DNA from: Owenia fusiformis
Taxonomy: Eukaryota > Annelida > Polychaeta > Sabellida > Oweniidae
Assembly (NCBI GenBank): GCA_903813345.2
Contig: CAIIXF020000012.1
Location: 10,706,932 to 10,770,931, forward strand
Direction: 5' to 3'
DNA: 64,000 nucleotides
Part shown: one piece after another, positions 23,477-59,100 of the stretch
Position numbering within the stretch: the first letter of the stretch is position 1
Layout: every line of letters starts with the position of its first letter
Program-made: the position numbers and the translations under genes
Notes under the pieces: model-generated
Databases searched by the model: none
Told to the model about the DNA's origin: nothing
What the model saw: the letters and a program-made list of their open reading frames with translations, nothing else

Positions 23477-23489
23477 GTTTCCTCTGAAA

Positions 23490-34985: not shown

Positions 34986-35491
34986 TCAGTGTAGGAGCAT
35001 ATAAATTGAGAAACACACATGTATGAATCCATAAAAATTGACTTTAGTGACATGTCCATTAGATTGGACATTCTCATGGCATTGTTTGAAACGGTTTTCC
35101 CAGATATGCTCGATTCCGCATAGAATGCCCTTTTTACACTCATAATCACATGACTGTTCATTATACTTAGAGGTTGACATGCCTCGTCGGTAACGTATAA
35201 ACTTTGCAAAGTAAGGACTGTTCGTCTCTTTGAAGCTGTCTACAACCTTTGTAAGCGATGCCGTACTTATGTCATTGACCCCATACGCTTCTGTGAATTT
35301 ATACTCGAGTTCCCATTCTGCGTTTTCTGGATCAGCGTTTGCCTTTGTAAGGTTCATATAGTATTGCCATATATCTGTAAGTTTGACATCCGTAGTTTCG
35401 TATCTGACCATGCGCAGTGTAGGGTTTCCGCCATACCACGAGGTACCACATGTTGCAGGTGATATAAACGCAGATCCTACTATTTTATCTC
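34986..35491 (-). CDS. SMPDL3: SMPDL3 copy A exon 6: C-terminal domain and tail
   Basis: The acceptor is TTTCTTTGTAG. It encodes IVGSAFISPATCGTSWYGG, QYYMNLTKAN, LEYKFTEAYGV and the Cys-rich end, then a stop after a hydrophobic tail. The length of 506 nt equals copy B exon 6. Confidence 0.9.
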
Positions 35492-38400
35492 CTACAAAGA
35501 AAGCACGTTATGAATAGCTCAGTAAATAACAATTTATTTTGGGCAGTTGAAGTCGATAATCAAAAATGGTTGCAGGCTGTCTGTGAATGATGCGTTACAG
35601 ACTATATGGTCATTACACTCACTTTAAAGCAAGATAAAATGTACTCAACCTCAAAAATAATTTCCAAAGCAAAAGTGAAATGGGTGCACAATTATTGAAT
35701 TATTGGAAAAACCAAAAATGTTTTTTAAGTAGGCAATATATAAGAAGTGCAGATTATACGAGGGGAGTGCGTCCCGTGTACATTTATTTCGAAACTAGAG
35801 GAGCCGAATTCCTCCAGACTTTGGTGATTCATGAAAGAATCGAAGGTGTACATTCCGGTGTGTATTAGGGCAGAGACATTTTTTATATGTTTTATATGGT
35901 TTACGGTTATAGTTACATGTATCGAGAGCAATGGGTAGGGGGTTGCAATATATACCTGATTTGTTGTTTATCATTCGCACTGTGTCAGCATGAGTGTGTC
36001 CATAGTACTGTCCAATGATTATGTCCGAATATTTAACAACAATGTCGTTGAAACGGTCGCTGAATTTCTTTGTGAGATCGCTATTGGCAGAGTCTTCATT
36101 ATTCCCTAGTGCTATGTGAGCAGCTATGTGAGTCTAAATCAAATATTAAGTTACTTTTAGATTCATGTGTACATTTTAAAAATAGTGATTCTTGAAAATA
36201 ATGAGTTATAAATACGTGATATAAAAATGAATCATTTTTTCAAATATCTACGTCTCGTTTGGTGAGAAACTGTGAGAGTCTGTATCTCAAATTCTATCTG
36301 ATAGAGTGGAAATCTTTGCTAATGTTATGTTCAGTGTACAGTACAAATCTCGTACTAAGAAGCCCATAACAAACAGGGGAATTTTCCACAACGTGAGATG
36401 GAAATTTCCATTACTTTTTTAGTACCCTCTTCTCATTATATGGAAAACAAAAACAAAGTATGAAGAAACAAGAGCAGACGAGCTTAACCCCATTATCCTA
36501 CACTGTGATAAAATGCAAAAACGTAACCTAACAACCCCCCACCCACTCCACTTAAACAACAATACCGTTCTATAATGGTTACTACAGTATGTTTCGAATT
36601 GGCTCGTTTTGTAGAGTTTACTTTGTCCTTACGTACTATTCCACCAGCAGCCTTTATTCGCTCCAGTTCATCCTCCAACCATTTGAATTGTGAGGCTGGG
36701 TCGTTTAAGTTTCGTGTCGCACCATTTTTCACCATCCATAGATTTGTGTTCAAGATAATAATGTTTTCTCCTTCTCTGATAGTGCCAGAGTAATAGCCTC
36801 CTATAAAAGGTACACCTTTGATGATAAGGGCAAAATTGTCAGAGTTGTTTGAAACTAGCGATCGAAGACAAAATGTCATCAAGCTATAGCTAACCAAAAA
36901 AAGAAAAAAATCTTACCAAATGCTCCTATTTCATTTCGGCCATTTCGGCCATTTTTAAACGAGGCGAAACCTCCCTCGTTCTCATTTCATCCCCAGTGCA
37001 TAAGGAAAAAATAAAGTCGAGTCGAGCCTCATAAATACTCGTACTATGCGAAATCTAAAAGTAGTATTCGGGGGTCCTACCCTTGTGAAATGTCTGCAAC
37101 GCTGCATCACCTATCCAATCCCTCCAAATCCCACCGACTGCAGTATAAAGTGTACTATTATGTGGCTGAAGCTGATCTTTAGGGTAGCAATCATTGTTTC
37201 CCAGTGCTGGGAATACCTTTGTTGATGGGAAGGCTTCTTTTATCAAAGTCGTTACGTTCACAATGGAGGCAACCACGACCGACTCTGGTTTGAAAGCACT
37301 TTCATTTTTCACATGTGGAGACATATCCCTTAAAACAAATCATTCTTGACACAACTGAGCCATCTTATTGACGAAATATACAGTTTCCCAAATTATGGTA
37401 CATGTATTATAAAATGCTACATCAGTATGGAAACGTCAGCTCACCTGGTTACGTGAAGACGCCATAGGCCATTTGTCGGAGTTCGAGACGCTTGTTTTAC
37501 ATGTGTTACAAGTACTTACTCCATCCACAAAATAAATAGTATAATATGATATATGTTGCTCAGTGGCAATTTGTACAATACATTACAACCTACCCTGTCC
37601 AAACAATAAACTCTGGGGCTGGCCCCAAAGATTTCATCGCGCCAACAAAACTTTTCTGAAAGATTACTGGACAATCACATCGTGGCATGCCGAAGATGCC
37701 CAACTCTTCCGTAGAAAATACGTCTCTACATGATTCTTGTTGGCTTTCATATAGCGTATCTATATGGTTGTCTGTCACGTGCCAGAAGTATCCTAAAATT
37801 CAAAGTGGGCTACTGTAAGTGCATGGTGCAAAATGGTTTCAGCACAAGATTTTTATTTCTACGACATGTGTAATACAGGGTGGGTACAAAACATCCATAT
37901 TTTTATTTGGGTATAACTTTTTTAATGATGTATTGTATTTTAGAAATATTTTGTATAGATTCAAGGATAACTGATTTCTGAAATGGGATAAATGAATCAT
38001 CAGAGACGCCATTTGTGACTTTACCGTTGTCAGGCTATTCCGATGTGCGTCTTTGAAAGGTTTAATTAGAGAGGTTTCGCAAAACGAATTAGCTAAAACG
38101 TATCCGCATCCGTATCTTGTTACGTTTACGGATACGTATTTCGATAATTTTCGTTTCGCAGTTCGTTTTCTGAAGTACGTAATTATAAACGCATCTCAAT
38201 CCGTGTTCAATAGTAGTGAAAACTAGGGTCAAATAAATGACTTCATCTGCACTAAGATTTCAAAACACCATTGGGAGTGTCAGCTTTCAGAATCACAACT
38301 CCATAAGTATTTTTGGTGAGTGAAAAAATACATATTAACCCCTTCATCCCTAAGGGGTCATTTATTAATTTCATGACATCAATTTCAAAATGAAGAATAT

Positions 38401-41400
38401 CCCTTAGGCCGGAAAACATTATTTCTAGGTTTACAATAACCAATTCAGTGTCAAATTATACTTTGGGGAATATTTAACGGTTTGGACACAGATAGCTGAA
38501 ATAGTGGTCATTAAGTGACGTGCAGTGACTGCATTATGCCACAAAAATGCGTAAACATTTCTTTTTTCGGTAAAAATGATATTTGAAATTAGTGTGAAGA
38601 TTTGCGTTAACTTATTTTTTTCCTGAGAATATCAAGGATGCAGCAAGTGCGTTTTGACTTAACATGAAAGCATGCACGCTTAATGTTATATCATCATATC
38701 CCTACCTCATTATCTATTTAAATATGCCTTTATAAATATACTTATCAATGCTACATCTCCCCTGTTTTGTATGAAAAATCAACAAAAAACATATTATGTA
38801 AAAAGATAAATTAGCATTGTTTTTCTTGAATTCATTGAACAACAGGGGACCAGCTCATCAGAGAATCAGAGAACGACGCGAAGCTAACGCCCATCATACC
38901 AGTTGAATATCTCACACTAGAGATTGCACTATATATGAATATATGTAGGTACCAAACCTATAACATACTAATAATACCCTATACACCCTTTGGTTCTACC
39001 CAGAATCAACTGATATACCAACAACATAATACCCTAAACCGGTCATTTGTATCTTAACCCAATATACACCACAACCCGATCGGACACAGCCCGCAAATCG
39101 ACATATATAACCTATTACAACCAAACACAACCTAGATCACCAATCATACAACAGTACAATAGAACATAACCCAGTGTCAAAATACACAGAACGCAATAGA
39201 GCATAACCCAGCACCAAAGCCAGCATAGCGCAACCTGACTTACAACCACCATAACACAACCAACTGTCAGATTAACACAATGAGTCACAGCCCAATTATA
39301 AGACAACAAAGACAAACACAACCAATTGTTGAATTAACTCAACACAATTGTGCACAATCCAACACTAAACAATAAAAACACAATAAGGCACAACCAATAA
39401 AACACAACTAAACTAACAACTATGAAAACACAATGATCTGTGAAATTATCACCACATAATTTGGCACAACCCAATGATAAACCAACAAAAGCAGACACAG
39501 CCCATTGTTCAAGTAACACAACACAATTTTTCAAAACCCAAAACCAAACAATCAAAACAAAATCAGGCACAGGCAAAAGAACAAATTCAAATTGTAATAC
39601 CAAGATACAAAACTAACTAACTCCAATTGGAGACAACGCCAATCACACAACACAATCAGACATAACAAGATGTCTCACCCGACTAGCCACAACCAGCTGG
39701 CCAACCAACATAACATATTCACAAGAAAACACGACCCATTATGAAATTAACATAACACAATGGGGCACAACCCGATACTAAATCACCAGACTAACAACCA
39801 TCAAAAGAGAACCGAGTCTCAAACTTACACAACACAATTTGGCAAAACCTATACCTACTTCACACTAACCCTCCATTACACAACCAAGCTTAACCAAATA
39901 CTCAATCGATACTCAACCCATCAAAACACAATCAGGCACAACCAATAAACCACAACGAAACTTTGATACCGATATACTCATTATTTTTAGGCTGACGTCA
40001 TTGTGACGCCACTGCACATGCGCAGAGGTGAGGCAGCCATCAAACTTTTGCGAGAGAAAATCACCCGTGATTTGCTCTGCTGTTTCCACTTCAAATGTCG
40101 GTATCGTTGACCATCGAGATGCCGGAGCTATCGCATTACTTACAGCAGTAAGTGGTGCATCTGCACGGGGTAATGGGGAGATGTCATTCACGATGCTGGT
40201 CTCTAAAACCAGGTTTGAAGTTGAGGTTGGGTCTTCCGTGACTTTTGCAAATGGCGTCAGCCTCCCATATTTGCAAGTTTTGATCTCAACCTTCAAACAC
40301 ACATCGTGCCGCAAGTACCTCATGTGGATTGATAGCCTGCACCTCATTTCGAACCAGGATTGATCTAGGGATCAATGTGTCAAAATTGGCAAGTATAACA
40401 TTGTATTTAGTTTGAATTGTTTGGTGCAAAAGCACACTGAAACTATTTGACCTATATTCAACATTGGTTTGTGCAAAGGCACATCAGAATTATTTGACCT
40501 AGATTTGCTTTGCAAAAGCATATCATAATTGTTTGAGAGAGTTGTTTTGCATTGTTTATGATCAATACTCATATTGACCATCATGTTTGATTAATTCATT
40601 GCTAAGGATTAGTTATTACATATGATCATGTTTTGGTACACTGCGTTACTCAGTCTGTTCCGCAGTTCTGAGGTTCTACTCTGCGCAGTTGTACATTACG
40701 CAATGTTGGGTATTTGTCGATAGTTAAGTATTATCAGGTTTTGGTACACTGCATTACTCAGTCTGTTCTGAGGTTCTAATCTGTGCAGTTGTACTTTACG
40801 CAATGTATTTGTTGACAGTCAGATATGGTCATGTCTTGGTACACTGCGTCTATTGAGGGCGTTCCGCGGAACTACCCTGCGCAGCTATATACGAGCAAGT
40901 TCTTGTTTGGCAACAGCACTGGATGATTGTGTTGAGTTTAGACACTCATGGAAGCCTGGTCTATTGTCAGTTAGTTTGAACTTGAATTGTCTTATTGTTT
41001 GGCAACAGTATTAGATTGTTGTGTTGAGTTTAGACACTCATGGAAGCTTAGTTCATTATTTAAATCTACTTTGACTTGAATTGTTCATTTATTGTCAAAG
41101 TGTCGGTTTAGTCGTAAAGTTGTGAAGTCATATTAGTACCATAGCTTATACATTTTATGCATGTATAGCTTTATCAAAAGCACTGTTAGGCAGTTAGGAA
41201 ATACCATTTGTTCCATCTTGTGTCATCAATGGGAATACAAGTTGTTGTACCCACATCTATGCTGTGGCATATAATATTATAGGCTATACCTGGGTATAGC
41301 CTATGAGTGGTGTTGTATTACATTAACTTGTGTATACTTTGTATGCGATTCCATCCCTCATTGATCGGCATTGACATGCACCGGCATGTTGCGTATAACA

Positions 41401-44400
41401 TGCACCCACTTGTTACATGGCATGTACCCACTGGATGTGGGATTGCACCCACATGTTACATAACATTAATTTTGACTTGCATGTTACATAATGATTAATG
41501 TGCACTCATGTATATATATTGGTATTGCTACTTGGTGTGTCAAACACTATATGTTGTATAAGTTATTGTTATTAAGTTGTTGATTACTTATGGTACTATT
41601 ATGTTCAACTCTTGTGTCACCATAACTTGTGATTACTTATAGTAATACCATGGTGATATGTATAGTTGGTCTCACAGATCTTAGTGTTTTGTCAGTGGTC
41701 ATTATTAGGTTCTTTGTGTCATGTGTTACACATATACGAGGGGCGATTCATAAGTAGTGGGACTTTTCTGAGGCAGCAAGTCCCTGTGAACATACCTCAA
41801 CCAAATTTGGCACATGGACAGACTAGGATATAAGGCATTGTTTGGTGAAATTTCAATTTTATTCTTTTTGTTCCCTAGCAACAACGGTTGCTATGGTAAC
41901 CAAAAGTAGGGGTTAACGGAGCAGTTAAAAAATGAAGGGCTTGATCAACATAAATATGCTCATAAATATCTCAAAATGACAGTTATTTTCAAATATTTGG
42001 TTTCATATTGTCTCAAGCCTTGTAGTCATGACAACTGTAACATATATTACATCATCATGCTATTGTGATGTCACACAAGGCAGTGACACCAGGATGCTGC
42101 CATTTTCAGTCCTTCTTGGATGGAGCAAAATTTGATTAAAATAGCAATGAAAATGCAAGAATCGCGTATAAACATCCGTGCTGTGATTAAATTTAATGCT
42201 TTGAAAAAGTTTTCAGTATTAAAGACCTATAGAGGTTTGTTGGAAGGCTATGGGAAAGAAGAAGTAAAAAAATCTACAGTATATAGGGGGTATGCTGTAT
42301 ATGTATTCTGAATATAATACATGATAGCCGAGATGACCAATCTTGGAAAATATGGTTTTGAGGGTGCATACCTAGAATGGTTGAGGAGATGCCAAAAATG
42401 CATTGATCGTCATGGCGAATACTTTGAGAAAGAGTGAGATTGCACCAGAAGTATAACGAATCAATAGTCTTACACAGAATGGATGTGCTCCACAAAATGA
42501 CTTGCTAGAAGTCACGGATTAGATCACGTCCTGAATATCAGTTGAGACTTGTATATTTAACTAGCAATTAGTTTAGGAGCCAGTTGTAAGTGTACTCATT
42601 ATTCATTGGTTATTGTAAGGATATGGTAATACAATATTGCCATTTTATTCCAATGTTTAGTTGGTAACTTGTATTTGACTTTTACGTCATATCGCAAGCT
42701 CACAAGAGCTATTTGTAAGTGTACTTGTTATTCATTGGTCATTGTTAGGATATGGTAATACAATATTGCCATTTTATTCCAATGTTTAGTTGGTAACTTG
42801 TATTTGACTTTTACGTCATATCGCAAGTTCACAAGAGCTATTTGTAAGTGTACTTATTATTCATTGGTCATTGTAAGGGTATGGTAATACATTATTGCCA
42901 TTTTAGTCCAATGTTTAGTTGGTAACTTGTAAGTTTGACTTTATGTCATATCGCAAGCTCACAAGAGCTAGTTGTAGGTGTACTTATTATTCATAGGTCA
43001 TAAAGGTTATTGTGGTAATGCATATTGCAATGTTATGCCTATGTTTATTTAGTAACCAGTTATCCGGTTGTGTCACACACTCTCCCAGGTGAAGGTATTG
43101 TTACAGAATTACTTGTGTGTATTTACAGTGAGTTCCATGCACATGAGCTAATTAATGTAAAGTTATAACATAAGAGTCTTAGTAGACAAGTTACATGTTT
43201 CAGTATTAAATGTGATATTAAATGCTGTATATCATGTGACCATGAAGCAAGGATATTAGTTCAGTAGTTACTTTAGATTCATCTTTGTGAGTGTTGTTTG
43301 AATGCATGTACTCATTGCTATTTAGTAACAATGTACTACTATTATTCAGGATATTATTCAGGTAGATGGATAATATGTCTATCATTCAAGTAAATAACAC
43401 TGTACAATTCAGTGTATATTATTCAGGTATATTATGCATATATCATTCAGGTATCACAACATCAAAGGTATTTTTCATATATGTTTTCCACTATGTGTGG
43501 CTTTGTTTGCACACTTTGTGTGCCTCACTGTATTACCATGTTGTTCAGTTGTTAATAAACCTTTAATCTTTTAGTTATATATTTAATTTAACTCATCTGT
43601 TTTGTCAGTTAAAGTGTATGTTTTATGTCGCAGCGCGACATATTCCGTCCCTTTGTCATTTTATAAGTCATGTCTGAGGACCCTTGAGAGTATTAACAGG
43701 CACAACACGAACCCGGGATTTTAATGCTAACGATTCTTTCACCTCACTTAGCCCTTCCCCTTATTCACGCTACAACTTCTGTTTGCTCTGCACCGCCGTG
43801 CGGAGAGAGGGGCGGTGAGGGTCGTTACACATGTTCAAGTCATACAACGGGAAGAAGCTCCCTGGCTAGAAATTATTTCAAAATCATTCAGTTTTTCATC
43901 AACCTGAGCACTTTTTGGGATTTTTTAGCCAAAAACTCCCCTTGGCAAAAGCTGGATGAAGCGGGACGCCACCTTTAGACCCAATATCACATTCATTGTC
44001 GAGGTCAGGACCAAGCTGCTGTACTCAAACTAAGCCCAATACCCTGCTCTATATGAATATATGAATTCAGACTTCAGTGACTTAAGGCACAACATATAAA
44101 TGCAGGTGGCCCAGCTGCTCACCATTGGTTTGATGTCCCTAAGAAATTCACTACGGTATTACTATTGACCCCAAAAACGATAGACCTTACATCTGCGTAT
44201 TAGCAAATGTGAGTAAAGCTTTACTCATAAAAATTGCAAGTCCCTCGCTTATAATCAAATTTATCGACAGATAAGGCTATTACTTCATCAAAATAATCAC
44301 GACACACATGATAACATATGTGGGTTATTAAAATTATACATTTAGGGAACAAATTGTCAAGATTTGAAGGACAAAATAGATACGGAGACAACTACGCACA

Positions 44401-47400: not shown

Positions 47401-50400
47401 TCCGCTGATTATCAGTGGATCAGTTTTTCAGAAAATAAAAAGTGATTATAAGGAAGCAATGCATATTGGTACACCATGTGATTTTTTAATATTTTTTATT
47501 ATGAACTTTTTCCCTTAACTGTGAGAATGTAATACTCATTTGAAATAATAAATCTAGACTTATTTGATATAATCCTCCTTACGCCTTTGCTTTCCTCAGC
47601 AAAAGATGACTGCATCTGGCCTTTTTATTGGACAGAACTTTCCACTGCACGTAATGTGTGTACCTTTTACACTTGTATCTAGTAACACAGACATACTCAC
47701 CTAATTGCCTCCCTTAATCCATTTATTTGCTAAACATATTATAATTAATGTCATAAACGCGATCCACTAAAGTTTGATATTCTTGAAAATAGAGTAAATA
47801 CTTAATACACTGAAACAGCAACATTTTAATCCTAAAATGATCACCGAGATGAACGTGCATCTGAAAAAGCAAAACTGATTTTTTCGCAATCGATTTATTT
47901 TTCCTTAAAAAGTGATGGATAATAAATACCCATTCGATCAAATACTTGTGTTTATAAATGATACATATGCTTTTAATAATAACTCATTTCAAAATGTTTC
48001 TATTATTTAATATTTGCTTTTGAGGACTTGTCAGACCCGGGGACTTAGCAAAAAAAATTTTTGTTTGAAATAAAACAAAACGGAGGGGCACAGATTTGAA
48101 AGAAAATGTGTTTTCATCAGTATTAAGACAATTTGTTTATTTCACTGTAGATGGAGCAGCTTTTTATTGATATTTTTTCTTTGCATAATGTCATAATGCT
48201 CCGGGGTCTTCCCAAAATTAAACAATCCCACCCCGTGCCTGAGGTTGCCAATCTTTTGGAGAGAAGTGTAAATTTACTATTTTTATCTACTAGTCATATA
48301 AATTGAATATATGTTATTGGTTATTGCAATGAATTTTCCACAAATATTTTTGAGGGGGAATCCCGACCGGGGGTTCGTCCGAACCCATCGAACCCCCGGT
48401 CCCTACGGCTATGTGTAATGCTTCTATAGTATGTCATTGATGCGGTTTTATAGCTGGTTTTCTAATACATATTTTAAACGAGCTCGTTTCGTAAGATTTT
48501 TGGCCCTAAATCAGTGGCGTAGGAACAATGTACGCCAAAACGCCAGTGCGTAGTGTTGAAAAGTGAGAATAAAAAAGAGTTTTTAATTTTCTTATGTTCT
48601 TTAGTCATATTTTCTCATTCATTGTTTAAATTGTAAAAGTAATCTCGAGCACACTAGCCTAAAGAAATGTTTTGTGGATACCATATCATTATTGGTCTGT
48701 CTGGCAAATATTAACAGATTGAATTCCCTTACCAACATGCTTTATTTCATGAAAATCGAGCCACTATTGACTGTCTTATAAATACAATTTCGCCAAATAT
48801 TCGTGAATCGCGTTCTCTTCACAAATTTGAGAGGAAAACTGTTTTCTTTCAAAAACTACTTGATGAATACCTTTGACATTTTTTCTGCATTTTCCGTACT
48901 GCTTATGCTAACTATGGTATCATATAATTATAATAATGATGAACCTCTTAATTTAGATGTATATTTTTTTTTTCTCCCCTACCCCAATTTTTCAATTTCA
49001 CTATCGATTTTTATTCCGTTGCTATGCAAAATCATAGACACGAAATTATAGTTAAGTCAACAATTTTCTATTTTCTTACTAAATCACTAATTGTTCCTGG
49101 TAGTACTTTTTGAATTATGGATGTTAAAGACAAAAACAACTTGAAAATGCCGATTATTCAATTACACGTTCCATTGATTTCAGTTCTAGAAAAGCGATTA
49201 CCTAGTTTTTTTTCATTTGAAAAATATTCTTGTTTTATAACATTTTTTGGCATCCCCTAAGTCACGTTGACCTCGATTTGACCTTTGTGGTTGGTGTGTT
49301 TATTTGTTTCATTGATCACGAATGCGTTTCTTTATATCAATTGATCAAACTAGTTTCTTTAATCTGTACGTATTGTATTGCACGGTACACGATGGAATCC
49401 TACAATACTATAAGCTTATATCTTAATTCAATTATTCGAAAATGATTAAAAAATCTTAATTGTTTTTTGGAAATTGGTCGTTTCAATCGTTCGAGACATT
49501 AGCAAAGTGAGAATGATTTGTGTCGAGATTTAAAAGATAGGCTTTCCAAGGTGATTTTAAATGATAAAAATCATTCGAACATTTTAAAGCACATTAAAAA
49601 GGTACCGGGGATTTAAAGCTTGCATATGAAATCGAAACGCCAACCTATACGTATGACCAATCGCCCATACAAATGCATCGCTTAAGTATTTCCGTTCACA
49701 TTTAGGTTGTGAATATTGCAAGCTTAAAATCTCTGTTACCATAAAATGACGTTTTACGAGCATAATATAGGCGTTTTGATATAGAATATTGACACAATTG
49801 TTTCATATTTTTTTGGCAGGATTTTTGGCGTAGTGTTGAATTTACACCTTCCTACGCCCCTGTAAATCATGCATGACATACATCATCGTGTTCAGCAAGA
49901 ATTCAACTGTGCATCGAAATCAAAATTGACAGCATAGTGTTCAATAGACACGAGTAAAATGGTTCCCGTTGACCCAACGTCAAATTTCAAAATCTCCCGT
50001 TCTAAACCCGAAACTCTGAAGCTGAAAGAGTATCTGAAGTAGACTAAGCGCGCATAAAACTATGAGCGCTCGATACATTCCTTTGTTAATTTTTGTACTT
50101 TGCGTTCACGGTTACGTTGTGAAAAACATCGTTAGCTTAACCTCTCCATTGCTGTCGGTACCACAAACGTATTGAGTACACTTTTACTCCATCTATGCGT
50201 TACGGATTTTGATACGGGTAGTTAAAACGTTGTGCGAAACATGTACACTGTAATTATTGCAATACCATTCCATACAGTGTAAAATGAATTGAACATACCA
50301 TTTGAAAAACTCGATTTATGTCAAAAAATTCATTCACCAAATTTTAGTCAAATTATACACAGCACACAGTACTTGTTCATATAGTGATACCTTTAGAACT

Positions 50401-50818
50401 AAAAACAATATAATCGAAGGGTAAAATCGGATACGTAAATGACCAACGTACAAAAGCCTCATTTTTCGTGTTTTCCGTATTATTTCACGTATAAATCGAA
50501 CTGACTACGCATAAATCTGGTAAATACGTTACGGATACGGATCCGTGGAGCTAAAAAACGTTTTGCGAAACTTCTCTATTGAAAGGAATAATTGCAGCTA
50601 TAAACATATAGAAGTAATTGAAATTGAAAAAAGATTGTCCTTCTTCAGTTTTTTGCAGACATACATTGACAAACCGAAGGATTATACTTACGTTCAAGTC
50701 GTCTTTATCACCCTAAGCAGTCCAATTAGTAAATATACGTACCTTCGGAACCCAACACTAATGGTAGGTTAAGCAGAAACGCAAGTACACACAAGCTAAC
50801 GTCTCCACGACAAGACAT
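34986..50818 (-). CDS. SMPDL3: SMPDL3-type acid sphingomyelinase-like phosphodiesterase, copy A (6 exons)
   Basis: This is a secreted or surface metallophosphoesterase related to SMPDL3A/B. Coding exons in transcript order: 50743-50818, 37594-37792, 37081-37328, 36637-36800, 35956-36133, 34986-35491; all joins keep frame and give 456 residues. Residues 1-23 form a signal peptide. Metal-site motifs are YFWHVTDNHID (D33, H35), WTGD (D93), LGNND (N136), THIAAHIALG (H235) and YYGHTH (H275, H277). The family GNHD motif is GNND here: the active-site His is Asn137. The C-terminal domain has LEYKFTEAYGV and paired Cys (CDYECKKGILC). It ends with a short hydrophobic tail (FYGFIHVCFSIYMLL), possibly a GPI signal as in SMPDL3B. 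Intron 1 is ~12.95 kb, against 1.35 kb in copy B, because of a 12.5-kb insertion. The family cleaves nucleotide or phosphodiester substrates; activity here is uncertain because of the missing His. Confidence 0.87.
35956..36133 (-). CDS. SMPDL3: SMPDL3 copy A exon 5: AH and GHTH metal ligands
   Basis: Encodes THIAAHIALGNNED, then FSDRFNDIVVKYSDIIIGQ and YYGHTHADTV. The His residues are the conserved metal ligands of the second half of the calcineurin-like fold. 178 nt, phase 0 to 1, same as copy B. It differs from copy B at HIALG (HIPLG in B). Confidence 0.9.
36637..36800 (-). CDS. SMPDL3: SMPDL3 copy A exon 4
   Basis: Encodes GYYSGTIREGENIIILNTNL and DPASQFKWLEDELERIKAAG, the conserved LNTNL and QF.WLE.EL elements of the acid sphingomyelinase family. 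The acceptor is TTTTATAG and the donor ATA|GTACGT. 164 nt, same as copy B. Confidence 0.9.
37081..37328 (-). CDS. SMPDL3: SMPDL3 copy A exon 3: GNND motif
   Basis: Encodes DMSPHVKNES, IKEAFPSTKVFPALGNNDC, YPKDQLQ and GIWRDWIGDAALQTFHKG. The codons for GNND are GGA AAC AAT GAT; in most family members the third is a His codon. 248 nt, same as copy B. Confidence 0.9.
37594..37792 (-). CDS. SMPDL3: SMPDL3 copy A exon 2: first metal-binding motif
   Basis: Encodes GYFWHVTDNHID, Cys pairs (ESCRDVF, PRCDCPVIF) and FIVWTG, whose following Asp is completed by exon 3. The acceptor is AATTTTAG and the donor GG|GTAGGT. Confidence 0.9.
38960..39960. repeat. ~1-kb strand-skewed (A/C-rich, G-poor) degenerate repeat
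   Basis: The plus strand is dominated by ACACAACC, AACACAAT and CACAGCCCA words with very few G. A higher-order period of about 190 bp is visible (for example CACAATGAGTCACAGCCCAA near 39278 and TAATTTGGCACAACCCAATG near 39458). Open frames on either strand reflect the composition. Confidence 0.75.
39960..40370. other. Balanced-composition island between oppositely skewed repeats
   Basis: This ~400-bp stretch is more GC-rich and complex than its flanks, and open on both strands (39913-40347 minus, 144 codons; 40028-40363 plus, 111 codons). Neither product shows a motif I recognise. It could be a captured exon or the core of the surrounding element. Confidence 0.35.
40625..40885. repeat. Three ~110-bp tandem units
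   Basis: TTGGTACACTGCGTTACTCA, GTCTGTTC.., CAGTTGTACATTACGCAATG recur at about 40632, 40740 and 40836, the third more diverged. T/G-rich on the plus strand. Confidence 0.7.
40915..41075. repeat. Two ~95-bp tandem units
   Basis: TGTTTGGCAACAG, TTGTGTTGAGTTTAGACACT and CATGGAAGC occur at about 40912-40955 and 41005-41048. Confidence 0.7.
41737..42310 (+). pseudogene. 5' fragment of a decayed mariner element
   Basis: It starts after TA with CGAGGGGCGATTCATAAGTA, a mariner-type terminal repeat. About 380 bp later an open stretch (42120-42311) has IRAVIKFNALKKFSVLKTY and GYGKEEVKKSTVYRG, matching the first helix-turn-helix of mariner transposases. The catalytic domain and the right terminal repeat are missing. 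It is unrelated in detail to the intact mariner at 51170. Confidence 0.6.
42583..43060. repeat. ~130-bp tandem repeat, nearly four copies
   Basis: Units contain TGTAAGTGTACTTATTATTC, GGTAATACAATATTGCCATT, CCAATGTTTAGTTGGTAACT and GTCATATCGCAAGCTCACAA. Starts fall near 42585, 42715, 42845 and 42975; the last is more diverged. Non-coding. Confidence 0.85.
43060..44425. other. Inserted DNA without recognisable gene
   Basis: Part of the 12.5-kb block. It contains repeated ATTATTCAGGTA words (43330-43450), a possible end of a long-repeat element near 43550-43700 with an AATAAA at 43554, and a degenerate piece of the 19422 repeat at 43850-43975. No reverse transcriptase or integrase motif was seen. 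Confidence 0.4.
44425..44545. mobile_element. Diverged MITE related to 49601-49740
   Basis: GAGGTTAAGCTTTGCATATA, ATCGAAACTGAACC, CGTATCACTCGACCATA and TACAAATTCATG follow the same order as in the 49601-49740 copy. The ends are poorly kept. Confidence 0.45.
44547..45902. mobile_element. 1.36-kb foldback element built from AAAGCGTAACAAAGC-like words
   Basis: The termini GGTACGTTCACACCAACGGC and GCCGTTGGTGTGAACGTACC are perfect inverted repeats. The left side is packed with AAAGCG/CAAAGC words, repeated directly every ~166 bp at the start (44551 and 44717), and the right side carries both orientations. A short unique island lies at about 45240-45420. Ends of the type GG..GTTCACAC are reminiscent of PIF/Harbinger elements; no transposase is present. 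Confidence 0.8.
46152..46602. mobile_element. ~450-bp MITE with AGGCCATAAGAAGTAGATTC ends
   Basis: The left end AGGCCATAAGAAGTAGATTC and right end GAATCTACTTCTTATGGCCT are perfect inverted repeats, continuing inwards as TTTGC-TTTGCGTCC and its complement. The interior is AT-rich and non-coding. Confidence 0.85.
47226..48268. mobile_element. 1.04-kb TA-flanked element with CACTCCCCTCCAAAAG ends
   Basis: The left end CACTCCCCTCCAAAAGCTTG, followed by GCAACCT, and right end AGGTTGCCAATCTTTTGGAG..AGTG are inverted repeats with TA on both sides. Same terminal family as 21826-22008. The size and TA duplication suit a Tc1/mariner-type element, but no transposase remains readable. Confidence 0.75.
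48349..48415. repeat. GC-rich hairpin
   Basis: ACCGGGGGTTCG and CGAACCCCCGGT flank a ~12-nt loop, a strong stem in AT-rich surroundings. Probably a relic of a dispersed element; it does not fold as a tRNA. Confidence 0.6.
48420..49600. other. AT-rich DNA within the 12.5-kb block, nothing recognised
   Basis: Open frames at 48803-49051 and 49230-49445 (plus) have no motif and look like chance frames in AT-rich DNA. Confidence 0.5.
49601..49740. mobile_element. 140-bp MITE with GGTA..GATTT-AAGCTTGCA ends
   Basis: The left end GGTACCGGGGATTTAAAGCT and right end AGCTTAAAATCTCTGTTACC are imperfect inverted repeats. It is related to 22165-22294 and 44425-44545 through ATCGAAACGCCAACC, CGTATGACCAATCG and CAAATGCATCGCTTAAG. 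Confidence 0.75.
50743..50818 (-). CDS. SMPDL3: SMPDL3 copy A exon 1: signal peptide
   Basis: The ATG is followed by 24 more codons encoding MSCRGDVSLCVLAFLLNLP then LVLGSE, a typical cleavable signal peptide, and a donor GAAG|GTACGT in phase 1. It joins exon 2 to give ..SEGYFWHVTDNHID. The near-identical exon lies at the same relative place in copy B, supporting the model although ~13 kb separates it from exon 2. Confidence 0.82.
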
Positions 50819-51169
50819 TTTGATAGAATCGTGTATAGAAATCCTATTAAAGAACTGGGCTTGTCATTTAATCATATTGTTAATAAGGCTAGGCTAAATA
50901 AGAAAGGTGGTTCTCATGGTGTCTCCTTATATTCCAAACCTATTAAAAAAGAAGGCCCAATCAAGCATTTATGAAAACAAATCCTGATTAGTAATATACA
51001 GCCCCCAAAAAGTTTGGCAATACAAGGTTCTCTGTTTGATCACGTGTTAAAGAGACTGCATTTCAAAACGGTTCGAGTGATAAATGATAAGCTTGGCAGC
51101 GATATTATCTGGGAATCAACTCGCCGCTATTCTCTACTATGTCCCAAATACAAAGTAATGCTATTAAGT

Positions 51170-52475
51170 CGAGGGAAGATCCAAAAGTTTCCGGCCTAAC
51201 ATAGTTCCCGATGTCTGAGAGCAACCATTCTTCACAGTTCAAATGTTGCTTATGTATGAACATAATTTATGCATATGATTAACCTCTAGGGGTCACAGCC
51301 TCATTTTGAGAATATTCATAATGAGGTCAGGTCACAGTGGCTGCACATCAGTGATCACAATGGAGGAAACTGAATATAGAGCTGTGATAAAGTTTCTATA
51401 TCAAGAAGAAAATGGAGGGCAGGAAATCTACGATAGACTTAAGGATGTGTATGGGGAAGGTGCTCCCTCCTATTCTACTGTAAAATTTTGGGTGGCTGAA
51501 TTTAAACGTGGACGGGAATCAATTGATGATGCACCACGTTCTGGAAGACCTAAAGATGTCACTTCAGATAGAAATGTTGATCTTGTACATCGAACAATAT
51601 TGGAAGATAGGCGGAAATCTATACGTGAACTTGTAGAAGAAACTGGATTATCATATGGTACCATTTGTAGAATAATTCATGAAGATTTACACATGCAAAA
51701 GTTAAGCTCAAGATGGGTGCCCCGTATGCTCACAGAGGACATGAAAACAAAACGAGTTGCTGTTGCAAGAGAGCTTTTGGACATGTATAACACTGATCCA
51801 CAAGGTTTTATGGAGAGAATAGTCACTTGTGATGAAACATGGGTGCGTCATTTTGAGCCTTCAACCAAACATGAGTCAATGCAATGGAAACATATGGGGT
51901 CCCCACCCCCAAAGAAGTTTCGCACCACCCCATCCAACAAAAAGATGATGGCCACCATTTTCTGGGACTGTGAAGGTCCTATCTTAGTAGACTACCTTCC
52001 AAGAGGTACTACAATGAATGGAGAATATTATGCTGCTTTGTTGTGTACTTTAAAAGCTAAACTTGATGAAACCAGGCCACACAAAGTCCGTCTTGGAGTT
52101 TTGCATCAACAGGACAATGCACCTGTTCACACAAGCCAAGTTGCTCGTGATGCAGCGGAAGAATGCCATCTGGAATTATTACCGCACGCACCCTATTCTC
52201 CAGATCAAGCACCCAGTGACTATTACCTATTTGGGAAACTCAAAAAATCTCTACGAGGGCAACGCTTTGATGATGATGATGAGGTCAAGATAGCTGTTAA
52301 CCAGTGGTTGGAGGGTCATGCTCCTGATTTCTTCAGAACTGGACTTGAGATGCTGCCAAGAAGATGGGCCAAGTGCATCGAAGTACATGGAGACTACATT
52401 GAAAAATGACACTATCATTTTGAAAATCCATCAACTAGAACTATGTTAGGCCGGAAACTTTTGGATCTTCCCTCG
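51170..52475 (+). mobile_element. Intact mariner element (1306 bp)
   Basis: The terminal inverted repeats are ~38 bp, starting CGAGGGAAGATCCAAAAGTT at the left, with the exact complement at the right; TA follows the right end and a T (TA minus one base) precedes the left. Copy B carries the unoccupied site (GCTATTAAGGATGTCC near 60235-60250), so insertion followed the segmental duplication. The identical repeats and open transposase frame suggest recent activity. Confidence 0.93.
51360..52409 (+). CDS. Mariner transposase (DD34D family), intact
   Basis: A DNA transposase that excises and reinserts the element at TA sites. From the second in-frame ATG (51360) it has 349 residues, the usual mariner length; an upstream ATG at 51306 would add 18 residues and looks less likely. 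The N-terminal half has two helix-turn-helix regions (YRAVIKFLYQEENGGQEIY; SIRELVEETGLSYGTICRI) that bind the terminal repeats, with APRSGRPK between them, then WVPRMLTEDMK. Catalytic Asp residues are in IVTCDETWVRHF, LHQQDNAPVHTS and YSPDQAPSDYYLF. No stop or frameshift interrupts it. It is framed by the perfect terminal repeats of the 51170-52475 element, which lies upstream of SMPDL3-A. Confidence 0.95.
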   Translation: MEETEYRAVIKFLYQEENGGQEIYDRLKDVYGEGAPSYSTVKFWVAEFKRGRESIDDAPRSGRPKDVTSDRNVDLVHRTILEDRRKSIRELVEETGLSYGTICRIIHEDLHMQKLSSRWVPRMLTEDMKTKRVAVARELLDMYNTDPQGFMERIVTCDETWVRHFEPSTKHESMQWKHMGSPPPKKFRTTPSNKKMMATIFWDCEGPILVDYLPRGTTMNGEYYAALLCTLKAKLDETRPHKVRLGVLHQQDNAPVHTSQVARDAAEECHLELLPHAPYSPDQAPSDYYLFGKLKKSLRGQRFDDDDEVKIAVNQWLEGHAPDFFRTGLEMLPRRWAKCIEVHGDYIEK

Positions 52476-52479
52476 TATG

Positions 52480-53750
52480 TCCCCGGCTGGATGGCATTGA
52501 AAATGATTAACACTAATTTTTCTTGTAAAGTACATATCAAAACTTAGTGTTTCTGTGAGTTGAAGAAAAAGTTTAATACACAAAAGTGTACTTTTGGATG
52601 AAAATAAGATTTTTATAAGAGATACAATTATGAGAAAGTGCTACGCCCACTTTTATCAAATATTGCCACTCTAGGGGCCTCTTGATTAGAAAAAGGCACA
52701 CTATACCATGTTTTTCAAGTTTTGATATCCATTTGTGCCTGTTAGGATCTAGGAAAACCATGAGAAAGAGTTCAATACTATTTAGAAAATTTTAAACCTC
52801 TGGGAAACATGGCATAAACATAAAAGTTAATTATTCAAGCCTAGGGTCGACAGAGAGCACTACACAATGCAAACGCTGCGATTGTCAACAATGGACCGGT
52901 TTTATAAGTTAAAACACTTAAACAGGACAACTCGCATACGAGAGGAAACCAAAAAGTTTTTTAAAAAGCTATATCATTATTTTTTCATTAGATGTATGTT
53001 GGGTGCCTCCTTTTCATTGGAAATCATGAATGTTGTATATTATGAGGGCAGAAGAGGATGACATCTATGGAGGATTTGAACGATTTTCAAAGTATAGTAA
53101 TGGAGTCTTTAGATCTTGTTTGTTTTATGAAGATTTCTCATATGTTCTAATGTAAATTGTGATATCCTCGTATGTATTCAGTGATTATAAACATTATTTG
53201 GTCAATTATTAATGAAGACTGAGTTAAGTTTTATATCAACTGCAGTCTGTGTGCATTCTAACATTAGTAATCTTATCTTGTCTTGTATTCTTATGTTGAA
53301 ATAATTCTCAAAAATGCGTTGACACCTTGAGCAGAAAATTTTGGTTCGAGGACAATTTTATTCCAGATAACAGTGATTCAAGCAGCTCTTTAGAGCCGTC
53401 TGTATGGTTGGAATCACTTAATTGAAAGACAAGTCGGATTATCCATAAAAAATGATTTACAAAAACTTGTGGGCAAACCCTCGTATAGTGAGGCAATACA
53501 ACAAAGGCATGCGATAACATGCATCTGACAGTGATAAATCGTGTTTGAAATTACAATAAGCTGATAAACAATTTGTTTGATGTGTTTTCAGCTATGTACA
53601 GAGTTGTCCAAAAATGGGAAATAGACCAGTGGATAGGGAATTTAATTATCCTTATTTGGTATATCATGAGTTCAAATTTATAATAATAGCTGTCAACCAG
53701 CGTCCATAATACAAATGCCGTCATTTTCACTTCAAAACGGTTATTCAAAA
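52480..53750. other. 5' flank of SMPDL3-A shared with copy B
   Basis: Colinear with about 60240-61500 of copy B, including AAAAAGTTTAAT, TAGGGGCCTCTTGATTAGAA, ACTACACAATGCAAACGCTG and TTGTGGGCAAACCCTCGTAT. No motif-bearing open frame. Promoter elements of SMPDL3 presumably lie in the shared DNA near its exon 1, but none can be named. Confidence 0.55.
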
Positions 53751-53764
53751 TCTTGCAAAAAACA

Positions 53765-53850
53765 AGTTTTTTTTGTCAACATGAACAGATGTTAAATATG
53801 TCCACCATTCTGATCAATTATAGCCCTCAATCTTGGCATAAACTGGTCGA
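53765..53850 (-). pseudogene. C-terminal scrap of a Tc1/IS630-type transposase
   Basis: On the minus strand about 25 codons read IDQFMPRLRAIIDQNGGHI, then a stop and HLF, the characteristic R.....I...GGH..HL ending of Tc1/IS630-family transposases. Nothing upstream in frame survives. It is absent from copy B. Confidence 0.5.
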
Positions 53851-53854
53851 TAGT

Positions 53855-54480
53855 GTAACGCGGTAAACACGATACAAAAATATGTCATATTCCGCAGCGA
53901 ATATGGCATATTTACCTGCAGTGTATGACAGATTCACCTGCGGTATATGGCATACACACTAACCAATGAGAACGTGATACGGAAGTACGCAATTGTCAAT
54001 TGCATCGAATGAACGAACAAGTAAAATGTTATAAATTATAATAATGATTACTGAATCAACAGTACTGTGTATCGAATATATTAACTTAGCAGAAGTTTCA
54101 GTCACAAATCTCGCGTAATAGACTTACTCAATCAATCCAAGAGTCATATATTAGTACTCGACGCACTAACTATATTCGTAATCCAGCGTAGTTTTACATT
54201 TAGAGTCGATTCTCGCAATCAATTAAATCAAGGCTTTCTGTATCACGTTTCCACCTGCGATATATGTCATATTCACCCGCGGTATATGGCATATTCCGCA
54301 ATTTAGTATGACATATTCCGCAGGTGAGTATCGGGTATTCAGTGAAATCAATGTATCGCATATTCACTGCGGAATATCGCATACTCACCTGCGGAATATG
54401 CCATATACCGCAGGTGAGTATGGCATATTCACCCGTATCACAAATACCGCGCAACAATGAATGTATGCCATATACCGCGT
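53855..54480. repeat. Array of palindromic TATGGCATA / CCTGCGG motifs, copy A only
   Basis: About a dozen imperfect copies of ATATGGCATATTCCGCAGG-like and ACCTGCGGTATATGGCATA-like words in both orientations, clustered at 53880-53955 and 54230-54435, with GTAACGCGGTA at the left and TACCGCGTAAC at the right as inverted ends. Probably a foldback element. Missing from the matching place in copy B. Confidence 0.75.
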
Positions 54481-54562
54481 AACAGATAGCATAATTTATA
54501 TGCTTTTGAAATACTGAACTTTACTTCTCAACAATTCCGTCCTGAATAGATGTAAGGGGTTC

Positions 54563-55237
54563 ATGGTAGACCCTTTCTTGAATGCGTTATCATTCGTTAT
54601 CGTTACTCAACATTGAAATTCGTATTATAACTGACATTATAACATAATGCTATTTTTTGCGCATGCAAAGTACATTTTGGCAATTCATTTTTTCACTTTT
54701 TCTGATAGATATTGTTCCTGCTGAATACCAAAAACCGTTGATGTCTTTATCACATGCTGATATAGTATTTAAATCTACGGGCGACATCAATTGCACGGTT
54801 TTATTGAACCTGGGCGTACTATACGACACTCGGTCAATTGAGTATTTTGATCAAAATTGAATACAATATTGAGCAAAACACTCAATTGGCCGAATAGTTT
54901 TCTATTTCATGTTATCCCCGGGCATCAATTTGCAAAGAATACGTTCAAAATATACATTACTAAATGCACCACCGAATGCGATGCCTACAAAAATCGTTCA
55001 TCCTTTCATTGATACACTGTAGAAGAAAATAATGCACCAACCTTAGTTTTCTGTTCCATCGCGGCCATTTTATTGGATAAATCAGTGATCGTAGTCGTCT
55101 AACCTCGTTTTCAGAGGTGTCGTAACCGTCATGCTATAACACCGTGAATTACAGCACGTTGCAATAAACTGCAGCCACAAGCCTATTGCTAATAAAGTGT
55201 TGTGTTTATCTGAACGTAACCTGACAATTGGTACTGA
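54563..55237. other. Spacer between the two segmental duplicates
   Basis: 675 bp with no counterpart elsewhere in the window and no recognisable gene; a 67-codon frame at 54657-54860 overlaps the left part but has no motif beyond a hydrophobic start. Confidence 0.5.
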
Positions 55238-55607
55238 ACACTCGTTTAGTCTGTTGTTTTACAGCAAGTATCCAAGATTCTGAAACATCATGGCTTACCG
55301 TATTCTCTCTCATGAGCGCACAATGCGATCCCTAAATTGAAATTTAAAAGGGTAAGATATTGCGATCATTAAATAAGATAAGATAATAAGATATTACAAA
55401 TATATGAATAATTTTCTAACTACTTATTACAATTCAAAAGATAACATTGACAATATGTCTATTTTTAGAATCTAGATAAATTGTGCAAAAAACGTTGAAG
55501 TTAGACCACAAAAAGTCAAATGTCTTGTTTTATATGTCGAGGTTCTACTTCTCAACTCAGTTTTTGATATAATTCTAGTGACAGTTCCTAAGACCATATG
55601 ATCGTTT

Positions 55608-56113
55608 TCAGTGTAGGAGCATATAAATTGACAAACACACATGTATAAATGCATAAAAATTGACTTTAGTGACATGTCCATTAGATTGGACATTCTCATG
55701 GCATTGTTTGAAACGGTTTTCCCAGATATGCTCGATTCCGCATAGAATGCCCTTTTTACACTCATTATCACAAGACTGTTCATTATACTTGGAGGTAAAC
55801 ATGCCTCGTCGGTAAAGTATAAACTTTGCAAAGTAAGGACTGTTTTTCTCTTTGAAGCTGTCTACAACCTTTGTAAGCGATGCCGTACTTATATCATTGA
55901 CCCCATATGCTTCTGTGAATTTATACTCGAGTTCCCATTCTGCGTTTTCTGGATCAGCGTTTGCCTTTGTAAGGTTCATGTAGTATTGCCATATATCTGT
56001 TAGTTTGGCATCCGTAGTTTCGTATCTGACCATGCGCAGTGTAGGGTTCCCGCCATACCCCGAGGTACCACATGTTGCAGGTGAAATCAACGCAGATCCT
56101 ACTATTTCATTTC
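55608..56113 (-). CDS. SMPDL3: SMPDL3 copy B exon 6
   Basis: The acceptor is TTTCTTTGTAG. It encodes EIVGSALISPATCGTSGYGG, QYYMNLTKAN, LEYKFTEAYGV and the Cys-rich C-terminus with its hydrophobic tail. Confidence 0.9.
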
Positions 56114-59100
56114 CTACAAAGAAAGCACGTTATGTATAGCTCAGTAAATAACAATTTATTTTGTGCAGTGGAAGTCGATAATCAAAAATGATTGCAGGCT
56201 GTCTGTAAATGATGCGTTACAAACTATATGGGCATTACCCTCACTTTAAAGCAAGATAAAATGTACTCAACCTCAAAAAATAATATCCAAATCAAAAGTG
56301 AAATGGATGCACAATTATGAATAATTGGAAAAACCAAAAATGTTTTTTTTAAGTAGGCAACATATAAGAAGTGCAGTTTCTACGAGGGGGTGCGTCTCGT
56401 GTACATTTATTTCGAAACTAGAGGAGCCGAATTCCCTTAGAAGATTCAAGAAAGAATCGAAGTTGTGTACTAGGGTTATGGTTACATGTGTCAAAAGTAG
56501 GGGGTTGCAATATATACCTGATTTATCGTTTATTATTCGCACTGTGTCAGCATGAGTGTGTCCATAGTACTGTCCGATGATTATGTCCGAATATTTAACA
56601 ACAATGCCGTTGAAACGGTCGCTGAATTTCTTTGTGAGATCGCTATTGGCATAGTCTTCATTATTCCCCAGTGGTATGTGAGCAGCTATGTGAGTCTAAA
56701 TCATGTGTACATTTTAAAAATATGGGAAATGTAAATATGTGAGCACAAGTGCTTAATGGGAAGACCAAGGAAGAATTACAAAATCAAATTATGAAGAAAT
56801 TAGAGCACACTAGCTTAACCTAATTATCTTACCCTGTGATCAAATGCAAAAACGTAACCTAACAACCCCCCACCCACTCCACTTAAACAACAATACCGTT
56901 CTATAATGGTTACTACAGTATGTTTCGAATTGGCTCGTTTTGTAGTGTTTACTTTGTCCTTACGTACTATTTCACCAGCAGTCTTTATTCGTTCCAGTTC
57001 ATCCTCCAACCATTTGAATTGTGAGGCAGGGTCGTTTAAGTTTCGTGTCAGACCATTTTTTACCATCCATAGATTTGTGTTCAAGATAAGAATGTTTTCC
57101 CCTTCTCTGATAGTGCCAGAGTAATAGCCTCCTATAAAAGGTACACCTTTGATGATAAGTGCAAAATTGTCAGTTGAGAGTTGTTTTAAACTAGCGATCA
57201 CAGACGAAATACCACCAAGCTATAGCTAGCCGATCATATCGGCTAGATTTTATCACGTGAATCTGCAGGTAAATGAACTCCTTTCCTGGGGAGGTTTCAT
57301 AAATATCTATTTTAATAATCGCCAAACCCTGGCGATTGCCGAGAACTAGGTTGTGGACAAATGTACAAAAATAAATGTATGAAATGTATGAAAATAAATG
57401 GATGAACTTTGCGATCGACGATGTTGTTTATTGTAACACGAGTAAGTTAAACAAGGTTATGCTGTCCAGCCTTGTTTCTTATATGCTTGGTGTTTTTTCT
57501 CATTAAACCCACCATAAGGTGAAAATAAAGTGAGTCGAGCCTCATAAATACTCGTATATATGCGAAATCTTAAAGTAGTATTCGGGGGTCTTACCCTTGT
57601 GAAATGTCTGCAATGCTGCTTCACCTATCCAATTCCTCCAAACCTCACCGACTGCAGTATATAGTGTACTATTATGTGGCTGAAGCTGATCTTTAGGGTA
57701 GCAATCATTGTTTCCAAGTGCTGGGAATACCTTTGTTGATGGGAAGGCTTCTTTTATCAAATTCGTTACGTTCTCAATGGAGGCAACAACGACCGACTCT
57801 GGTTTGAAAGCACTTTCGTTTTTCACATGTGGAGACATATCCCTTGAAACAAATCATTCTTTACACAATTGAGCCGTCTTATTGACGAAATATACAATTT
57901 CCCATATCATGTTACATGTATTATAAAATGCTACATCAGAATTTTAGATATCGTTTATTTTCAAACAAAATTGACATTCAATGATCATTTACGAATATAT
58001 TTTGATGATGCCTATCGTCAGTTTGTCAGTTGATAAAACGGCAATTTTTTAATAACTTGCATGGAAACGTCAACTCACCTGGCTACGTAAAGACGCCGTA
58101 GCCCAGTGCCAGTTGTCACGAGTTAGGGAAGTTTGCAATTGTTTAACGTGTGTTTATTCACTTACTTACTCACTCACTCACTCCCTCAATCACTCACTCA
58201 CTCACTCACTCACTCACTTACCACTCGCTCAGTGGCAATCCCCCAAATTGTACAATACATCCAACCTACCCCGTCCAAACAATGAACTCCGGAGCTGGCC
58301 CCAAAGATTCCATCGCGCCAACAAAACTTTTTTGAAAGATTAGTGGACAATCACAACTTGGCATGCCAAAGATGCCCAACTCTTCCGTAGAAAATACATC
58401 GTTACATGATTCTTGTTGGCTTTCATATAGCGTATCTATATGGTTGTCCGTCACGTGCCAGAAGTATCCTAAAAAGATCAAGTAAGTGCATGGTGCAAAA
58501 TGGTTTCAGCACAGGATTTTTATTTCTCCGAGAATGTGTTATACAGGGTGGGTACAAAACATCCATATTTTTATTTGGCTTTAACTTTTTTTAATGATGT
58601 ATTGTATTCTAGGAATAATTTGTTTAGATTCAAGGAGAACTTTTTGATTTCTGAAATGGGATAAATGAATCATCAGGGACGAAGAGGGAATAGTGTTCTG
58701 AGATCTTGTTTGTTGTAAAGAAGATCAGTAAAGAGCGATTGAAGATCTTAGATTGAGTCCACAACAAATGAAACTTATTTTTACTGTACGAGTAATATCC
58801 CTGACCTGACCAAAAGAGGACATTCGACTCATTCATTTTACCATGTAATCTGTGTCTAAATCTCCTCATTGGTGTAAAGGTCGGCTTGTACCATACATGC
58901 ATTAACATTTCATATAACAAGTGTGTGTATGTATTATTACCACCTTGCCGGGCCTGTTCTAGGGGTTCTATTGCTAGTTTAGAAGGCATTTATTTTACTA
59001 TATCGACCTGAGCAATATGTGACGTCTTAGTGGAGGTCAATATTGCCGGTCAAGAATGCCTTCGGCCCTCTTAGTGGAGGTCAATATTGCCGGTCAAGAA

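Follow-up and report, generated by a model that had tools for sequence, protein, structure and literature searches.

A tandem pair of SMPDL3-type genes in Owenia fusiformis with GNND in place of GNHD: probably altered phosphodiesterases rather than dead ones

The best-described relatives of the proteins considered here are SMPDL3A and SMPDL3B (PDB 5ebe, 9k2e) and human acid sphingomyelinase (ASM, SMPD1). In all three a histidine follows the metal-ligand asparagine, within the motif GNHD in the two SMPDL3 proteins and GNHE in ASM. SMPDL3A hydrolyses nucleotides (PMC4961792) and is reported to degrade cyclic GMP-AMP (cGAMP; Hou et al. 2023 as cited in PMC13268100). Two SMPDL3-type genes lie in tandem on a 64,000-nucleotide stretch of the genome of the annelid Owenia fusiformis (C12:10706932-10770931 of the 498 Mb assembly; this whole stretch is called the window), and both encode GNND at the same position. 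We consider that the two proteins are probably still enzymes: secreted di-metal phosphodiesterases of the SMPDL3 type, probably anchored by glycosylphosphatidylinositol (GPI), whose preference for substrates has shifted.

Like SMPDL3A and SMPDL3B, the proteins of the window carry a phosphoesterase domain and an ASMase_C domain, with the same metal ligands and the same His-Asp pair; unlike them, they have GNND, and they lie outside the group that SMPDL3A and SMPDL3B form with other genes of the same genome. SMPDL3A is the best solved relative, with an identity of 38% to copy 1 and a match of E 3.8e-70 over SMPDL3A residues 1-424 of 454 (obtained with copy 1 minus its signal peptide, in a gene model that carried 18 intron-derived residues in exon 4). 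Pfam recognized PF00149 (calcineurin-like phosphoesterase; 31.9 bits, cut-off 21.5) and PF19272 (ASMase_C; 81.4 bits, cut-off 23.7) in the 461-residue copy 1 protein, and since these were the only two families at E <= 0.001, no saposin B domain was found there. Human ASM shares the catalytic domain, the metal site, and the H282-D251 pair, but besides GNHE it has a saposin domain and a proline-rich linker (PMC5062611). Bacterial ASM-like metallophosphoesterases share GNND itself as well as the metal ligands and the His-Asp pair, but their identity to the pair is about 25% and they occupy a branch separate from all animal sequences. Further afield are YfcE and LpxH, to our knowledge members of different subfamilies with no ASMase_C domain. 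They too are enzymes with another residue where the GNH histidine would be: YfcE-type phosphodiesterases have GNCD (PMC4320098), and LpxH is reported to have Arg80 at the equivalent position (PMC5016852).

Both genes are on the minus strand, each with six exons and 461 codons in a stop-free frame, and all 10 introns (five per gene) are of the GT-AG type. The features are as follows.

50743..50818, minus strand: copy 1 exon 1, encoding the signal peptide MSCRGDVSLCVLAFLLNLPLVLGSE; matched by tblastn/blastn with its counterpart in copy 2, and followed by the donor GTACGT
37594..37792, minus strand: copy 1 exon 2, with the DxH metal motif and D65
37081..37328, minus strand: copy 1 exon 3, with D93, H97, and GNND
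37190..37201, minus strand: copy 1 GNND codons, residues 135-138 (Asn137 codon AAT at 37195-37193; from the exon bounds)
36622..36800, minus strand: copy 1 exon 4
35956..36133, minus strand: copy 1 exon 5, with the AH and GHTH motifs (H240, H280, H282)
34986..35491, minus strand: copy 1 exon 6, ASMase_C domain and a hydrophobic C-terminus that looks like a GPI signal
59816..59891, minus strand: copy 2 exon 1, signal peptide
58270..58468, minus strand: copy 2 exon 2
57595..57842, minus strand: copy 2 exon 3
57704..57715, minus strand: copy 2 GNND codons, residues 135-138 (Asn137 codon AAT at 57709-57707; from the exon bounds)
56953..57131, minus strand: copy 2 exon 4
56518..56695, minus strand: copy 2 exon 5
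55608..56113, minus strand: copy 2 exon 6

An earlier, sequence-only reading of this DNA gave both copies an intact frame of 456 residues and named the bounds 37081-57842, which are the end of copy 1 exon 3 and the start of copy 2 exon 3. The frames are indeed intact, but their length is 461 codons. Copy 1 exon 1 had escaped both a comparison of the halves of the region and a first scan; comparison with copy 2 exon 1 located it 13 kb upstream, and a model of copy 1 without exon 1 was rejected. A start of exon 4 at 36850/57186 was also rejected, as it brings a stop and a frameshift into copy 2, while the acceptor TATAG at 36800/57131 restores the alignment with SMPDL3 (K-GGYYS) in both copies. 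Intron 1 measures 13 kb in copy 1 (50742-37793) and 1.3 kb in copy 2. In both proteins exon 1 supplies an N-terminal signal peptide, and the C-terminus is hydrophobic and preceded by a small-residue site, an arrangement that resembles a GPI signal.

Residues 135-138 are encoded by GGA AAC AAT GAT, hence GNND, in both corrected gene models, as the sequence-only reading had stated. The alignment with GNHD of SMPDL3A is free of gaps here, and no other histidine takes the position, so that the histidine after the ligand asparagine (H319 of human ASM) is Asn137 in both copies. GNHD is found in 3/3 motif exons of the three other SMPDL3-type genes of the genome, and we regard it as typical of SMPDL3 proteins but not as part of their definition. 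Among the literature matches listed, whose coverage leaves out most subscription journals, no title concerned an animal SMPDL3 with GNND. Alignment to human ASM bears out the earlier statement that the other metal ligands are intact, for all seven are present (D33, H35, D93, N136, H240, H280, and H282). The acid histidine of human ASM, H282, corresponds to H97, and its Asp partner, D251, to D65; both are kept in both copies.

The importance of Asn137 depends on what the missing histidine does. In mouse ASM, H280A is reported to be inactive on bis(p-nitrophenyl) phosphate (bNPP) and H317A only slightly reduced, for which reason H280, together with D249, is regarded by Gorelik et al. as the likely proton donor and H317 as a residue that binds and orients the substrate; on liposomes both mutants fail (PMC4961792). 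H280 and D249, essential in the mouse enzyme, are retained in the pair as H97 and D65, whereas a pseudoenzyme would have been expected to lose an essential residue. The histidine after the ligand asparagine had been taken for the family's conserved catalytic residue, a claim that finds little support: bacterial ASM-like proteins have asparagine there, and in mouse ASM it is H280A that abolishes hydrolysis of a soluble diester, H317A having only a slight effect.

By analogy with ASM, then, the seven ligands would hold two metal ions, presumably zinc. A water molecule bridging the metals would attack the phosphate, and His97, polarized by Asp65, would protonate the leaving group. Asn137 would stand for a histidine that mainly binds and orients the substrate, and turnover of small or rigid phosphoesters might therefore be kept, while lipid-like or flexible substrates would be handled less well. 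The substrates would most likely be nucleotides or other soluble phosphodiesters.

The bacterial relatives offer a wider view of the motif. A protein from a Microvirga plasmid (WP_157934732.1), about 25% identical to the window protein, has GNND. Starting from it, 13 bacterial genome loci were reached, 12 with GNND and one with GNGD. Five of the 13 were caught by a peptide pattern that contains GNND and are thus a biased sample; the eight caught by DIHFDPFA comprise seven with GNND and the one with GNGD. Profile A3 was built on 13 rows, including four animal ones, of which SMPDL3A and two paralogues have GNHD. Its use in three more searches yielded 18 matches, 18/18 with GNND; 15 were new (L031, L032, and L047 having been counted already). 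In all, asparagine occupies the H319 position in 28 of the 29 bacterial loci read (Microvirga P0001 included), always as GNND, with the reservations that L022 and L023 do not differ near the motif and that the matches G403:C15 and G402:C79 (the latter a fragment) stand outside the count. The tree set has 23 bacterial rows. None of them departs from the seven ligands, the acid histidine, or its Asp partner, and at the H319 position 22 have N and one has G; the equivalents of D251 and H282 are invariant also in every animal row that covers them. Regular expressions for DxHxD and HxH came back empty for L018, L019, L028, L030, L033, L041, and L046, either because they were too strict or because the match was cut; for those in the tree set, which excludes L018, L019, and L046, the aligned columns show the residues to be present.

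These bacterial ASM-like loci (L017-L048) mostly read GNNDS followed by a GDY-like stretch, and their hosts include Microvirga, Pseudovibrio, Sphingomonas, Acidobacteriota, FCPU426, and others. At E <= 1e-15 the family appeared in 1/398, 15/396, 1/398, and 0/396 genomes, where the first three draws include the seed genome and the two draws of 398 appear to share the same pool; the fourth, taken from the family of a genome close to Cupriavidus in a search for RsASML, may contain no Ralstonia. A plasmid search with human ASM returned the same Microvirga record only, and one with the Microvirga protein returned that record and one from Legionella adelaidensis. No relative on a viral contig was confirmed among 10 pattern matches, nor any prokaryotic relative among the 109 pattern matches obtained by way of alignment A1; the prokaryotic relatives were found instead from the Microvirga plasmid match.

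Selection on the pair was gauged by comparing the copies with each other, as the sequence-only reading had proposed. Nonsynonymous divergence (dN) is 0.033 and synonymous divergence (dS) 0.135, giving omega 0.25 (bootstrap 0.15-0.39), and omega reached 1 or more in 0/1000 bootstrap resamples. The pair is thus under purifying selection, in agreement with the constraint that had been suggested for it. Both copies are probably constrained, since one neutral copy would give omega of about 0.5 or more (a piece of reasoning that assumes equal rates). Polarized replacements number eight on copy 1 and eight on copy 2, with 17 unresolved.

Several considerations weigh against an active pair. Constraint on the protein is no proof of constraint on catalysis, and by simple arithmetic 33 differences in 461 residues would leave nine active-site residues untouched in roughly half of cases. 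We know of no assay of any bacterial GNND protein found here. RsASML of Ralstonia, an assayed relative that stands outside the 29 loci, is reported to convert ATP and ADP to AMP without cleaving sphingomyelin (PMC4140839). As for the histidine itself, Zhou et al. favour H319 over H282 as the proton donor of human ASM, and H319Y leads to severe acid sphingomyelinase deficiency (PMC5062611). Across the superfamily, substitution of this histidine has given mixed results. In yeast Mre11 we take H125 to be the histidine of the GNH motif. H125N, a change in a conserved phosphodiesterase motif, is reported to leave no endonuclease activity in vitro, although the complex still forms (PMC2625443). In human ADPRibase-Mn the equivalent His-to-Asn exchange in this motif, H111N, reduces kcat on ADP-ribose 15-fold and efficiency 75-fold on CDP-choline and 14-fold on cyclic ADP-ribose (cADPR), yet efficiency on 2',3'-cAMP is about unchanged, with kcat down 1.8-fold (PMC4334965).

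The history of Asn137 bears on a somewhat unlikely variant of the account given above, by which the pair would be the remnant of an SMPDL3 lineage from early in animal history in which the GNH histidine was never gained. With a bacterial-type GNND and a single His-Asp acid pair, such proteins would hydrolyse soluble nucleotides or cyclic dinucleotides at the cell surface. A search of the genome with the ASMase_C model, whose counts are lower bounds, found six places: the two window genes, C1:11.8 Mb, C2:2.66 Mb, and C1:39.78 Mb, where the last exon occurs twice. In a tree built with the H319 column omitted, SMPDL3A, SMPDL3B, and the genome's three other SMPDL3-type genes form a group that excludes the pair (94/91); the pair joins these SMPDL3 rows, with ASM outside (93/82; 90/75 in another tree). 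Animal and bacterial rows split at 100/100, and the window genes are not in the bacterial ASM-like clade; the five introns of each gene also speak against membership in the bacterial branch. Because of long branches the placement of the pair is unsure, its stem alone amounting to 1.12 changes per column. (The trees omit L046, which has GNND and a very long branch, and L018, L019, L023, L024, and L026 were never included.) The tree calls for two N/H changes, and one loss of the histidine after its gain costs the same as two gains. Drawing the six H rows together as one clade is 3.7 log units worse but is not rejected (p-AU 0.165 in the approximately unbiased test), and if they do form one clade, the asparagine of the window genes is a retained ancestral state. 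Asn137 may thus be ancestral. A remnant of the kind described would represent a naturally occurring ASM-type active site with only one such histidine.

The sequence-only reading had supposed a change from His to Asn before the duplication. That both copies share GNND stands; the direction and timing of the change are unproven, given the tree comparison just described and an uneven dS along the gene. In exons 1-2 (90 codons, few sites) dS is 0.28-0.32, and in exons 3-6 it is 0.09-0.11, a contrast that may reflect chance or gene conversion. Gene conversion, if it occurred, could have passed GNND from one copy to the other after the duplication. Divergence of introns was not used as a rate, since as aligned by MAFFT it is inflated where lengths differ.

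Perhaps instead the proteins are dead, binding metal and ligand at the cell surface as scavenger, decoy, or scaffold without turnover. The loss of endonuclease with assembly intact in Mre11 H125N (PMC2625443), the severe disease caused by ASM H319Y (PMC5062611), and the 75-fold loss on CDP-choline in ADPRibase-Mn (PMC4334965) would all fit, and so would constraint on both genes. We think this unlikely: the proton donor essential in mouse ASM is kept with its Asp partner, the bacterial relatives usually have asparagine here, and ASM H317A and ADPRibase-Mn H111N remain active on some substrates (PMC4961792, PMC4334965). The "altered or inactive" enzyme of the sequence-only reading can accordingly be divided. 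We prefer an altered enzyme, which would be most impaired on lipid or bulky substrates, given the retention of H97-D65 and the bacterial asparagine; an inactive scavenger or decoy is the weaker reading, because mouse ASM can largely dispense with the absent residue on a soluble substrate and nearly all the bacterial relatives read do without it.

Asn137 may have company. At the position of ASM Y488, threonine occurs only in the two window copies among 31 rows (T310 in copy 1), and in the alignment ATCGTS replaces the AVTP loop and FGM replaces FGD. One might imagine that together these form a pocket for a substrate unused by known SMPDL3 proteins, with new chemistry or strongly changed specificity, and the long stem branch would agree. 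Such an outcome seems quite improbable, however, as the long branch may reflect fast evolution alone and the column of Y488, near a loop of uncertain alignment, is highly variable (other rows have W, F, V, Y, I, or G). That the odd codon is an assembly error, or that the copies (93% identical in protein) are alleles placed side by side, is scarcely credible, since two loci 20 kb apart that differ at 33/461 residues, with dS 0.135, several introns unequal by at least 160 bases, and a mariner copy upstream of copy 1 only, carry the same AAT, so that a base-calling error is also unlikely.

Some other features deserve mention. The paralogue at C1:39776056-39778782 carries its last exon twice, about 2.3 kb apart and with identical translation, either by a fresh partial tandem duplication or by doubling in the assembly; its exon 5 has FAHHHTD where the window genes have YGHTHAD, with both metal histidines kept. 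The mariner-type transposon upstream of copy 1 exon 1 spans 51169-52476 (bounds from the comparison with copy 2), is absent from the matching place of copy 2, and holds a single open transposase frame (51279-52409, plus strand). The family looks young, because at least 21 other full or nearly full copies in the genome are 96-99% identical to it; at least one more is at 93% (30 candidates scored). Elsewhere in the window, an open frame of 389 residues (22334-23503, minus strand) has the histidine boxes HDCGH, HHHHHKNT, and HQVHH and presumably resembles a fatty acid desaturase without introns, perhaps a methyl-end one. Repeat arrays on the minus strand are open in three frames at 7225-8088 and in two at 10213-10661.

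Two structural papers disagree on the proton donor of this family, one naming H319 (PMC5062611) and the other H280, the equivalent of human H282 (PMC4961792). A constrained animal pair that lacks the H319 equivalent and keeps that of H282 is independent evidence, from sequence, for H280/H282 as the donor, and in this the pair is like 28/29 of the bacterial relatives read, where the one is absent and the other kept. GNND proteins should not be called dead from the motif alone, and the pair provides a natural protein with which to test which histidine donates the proton.

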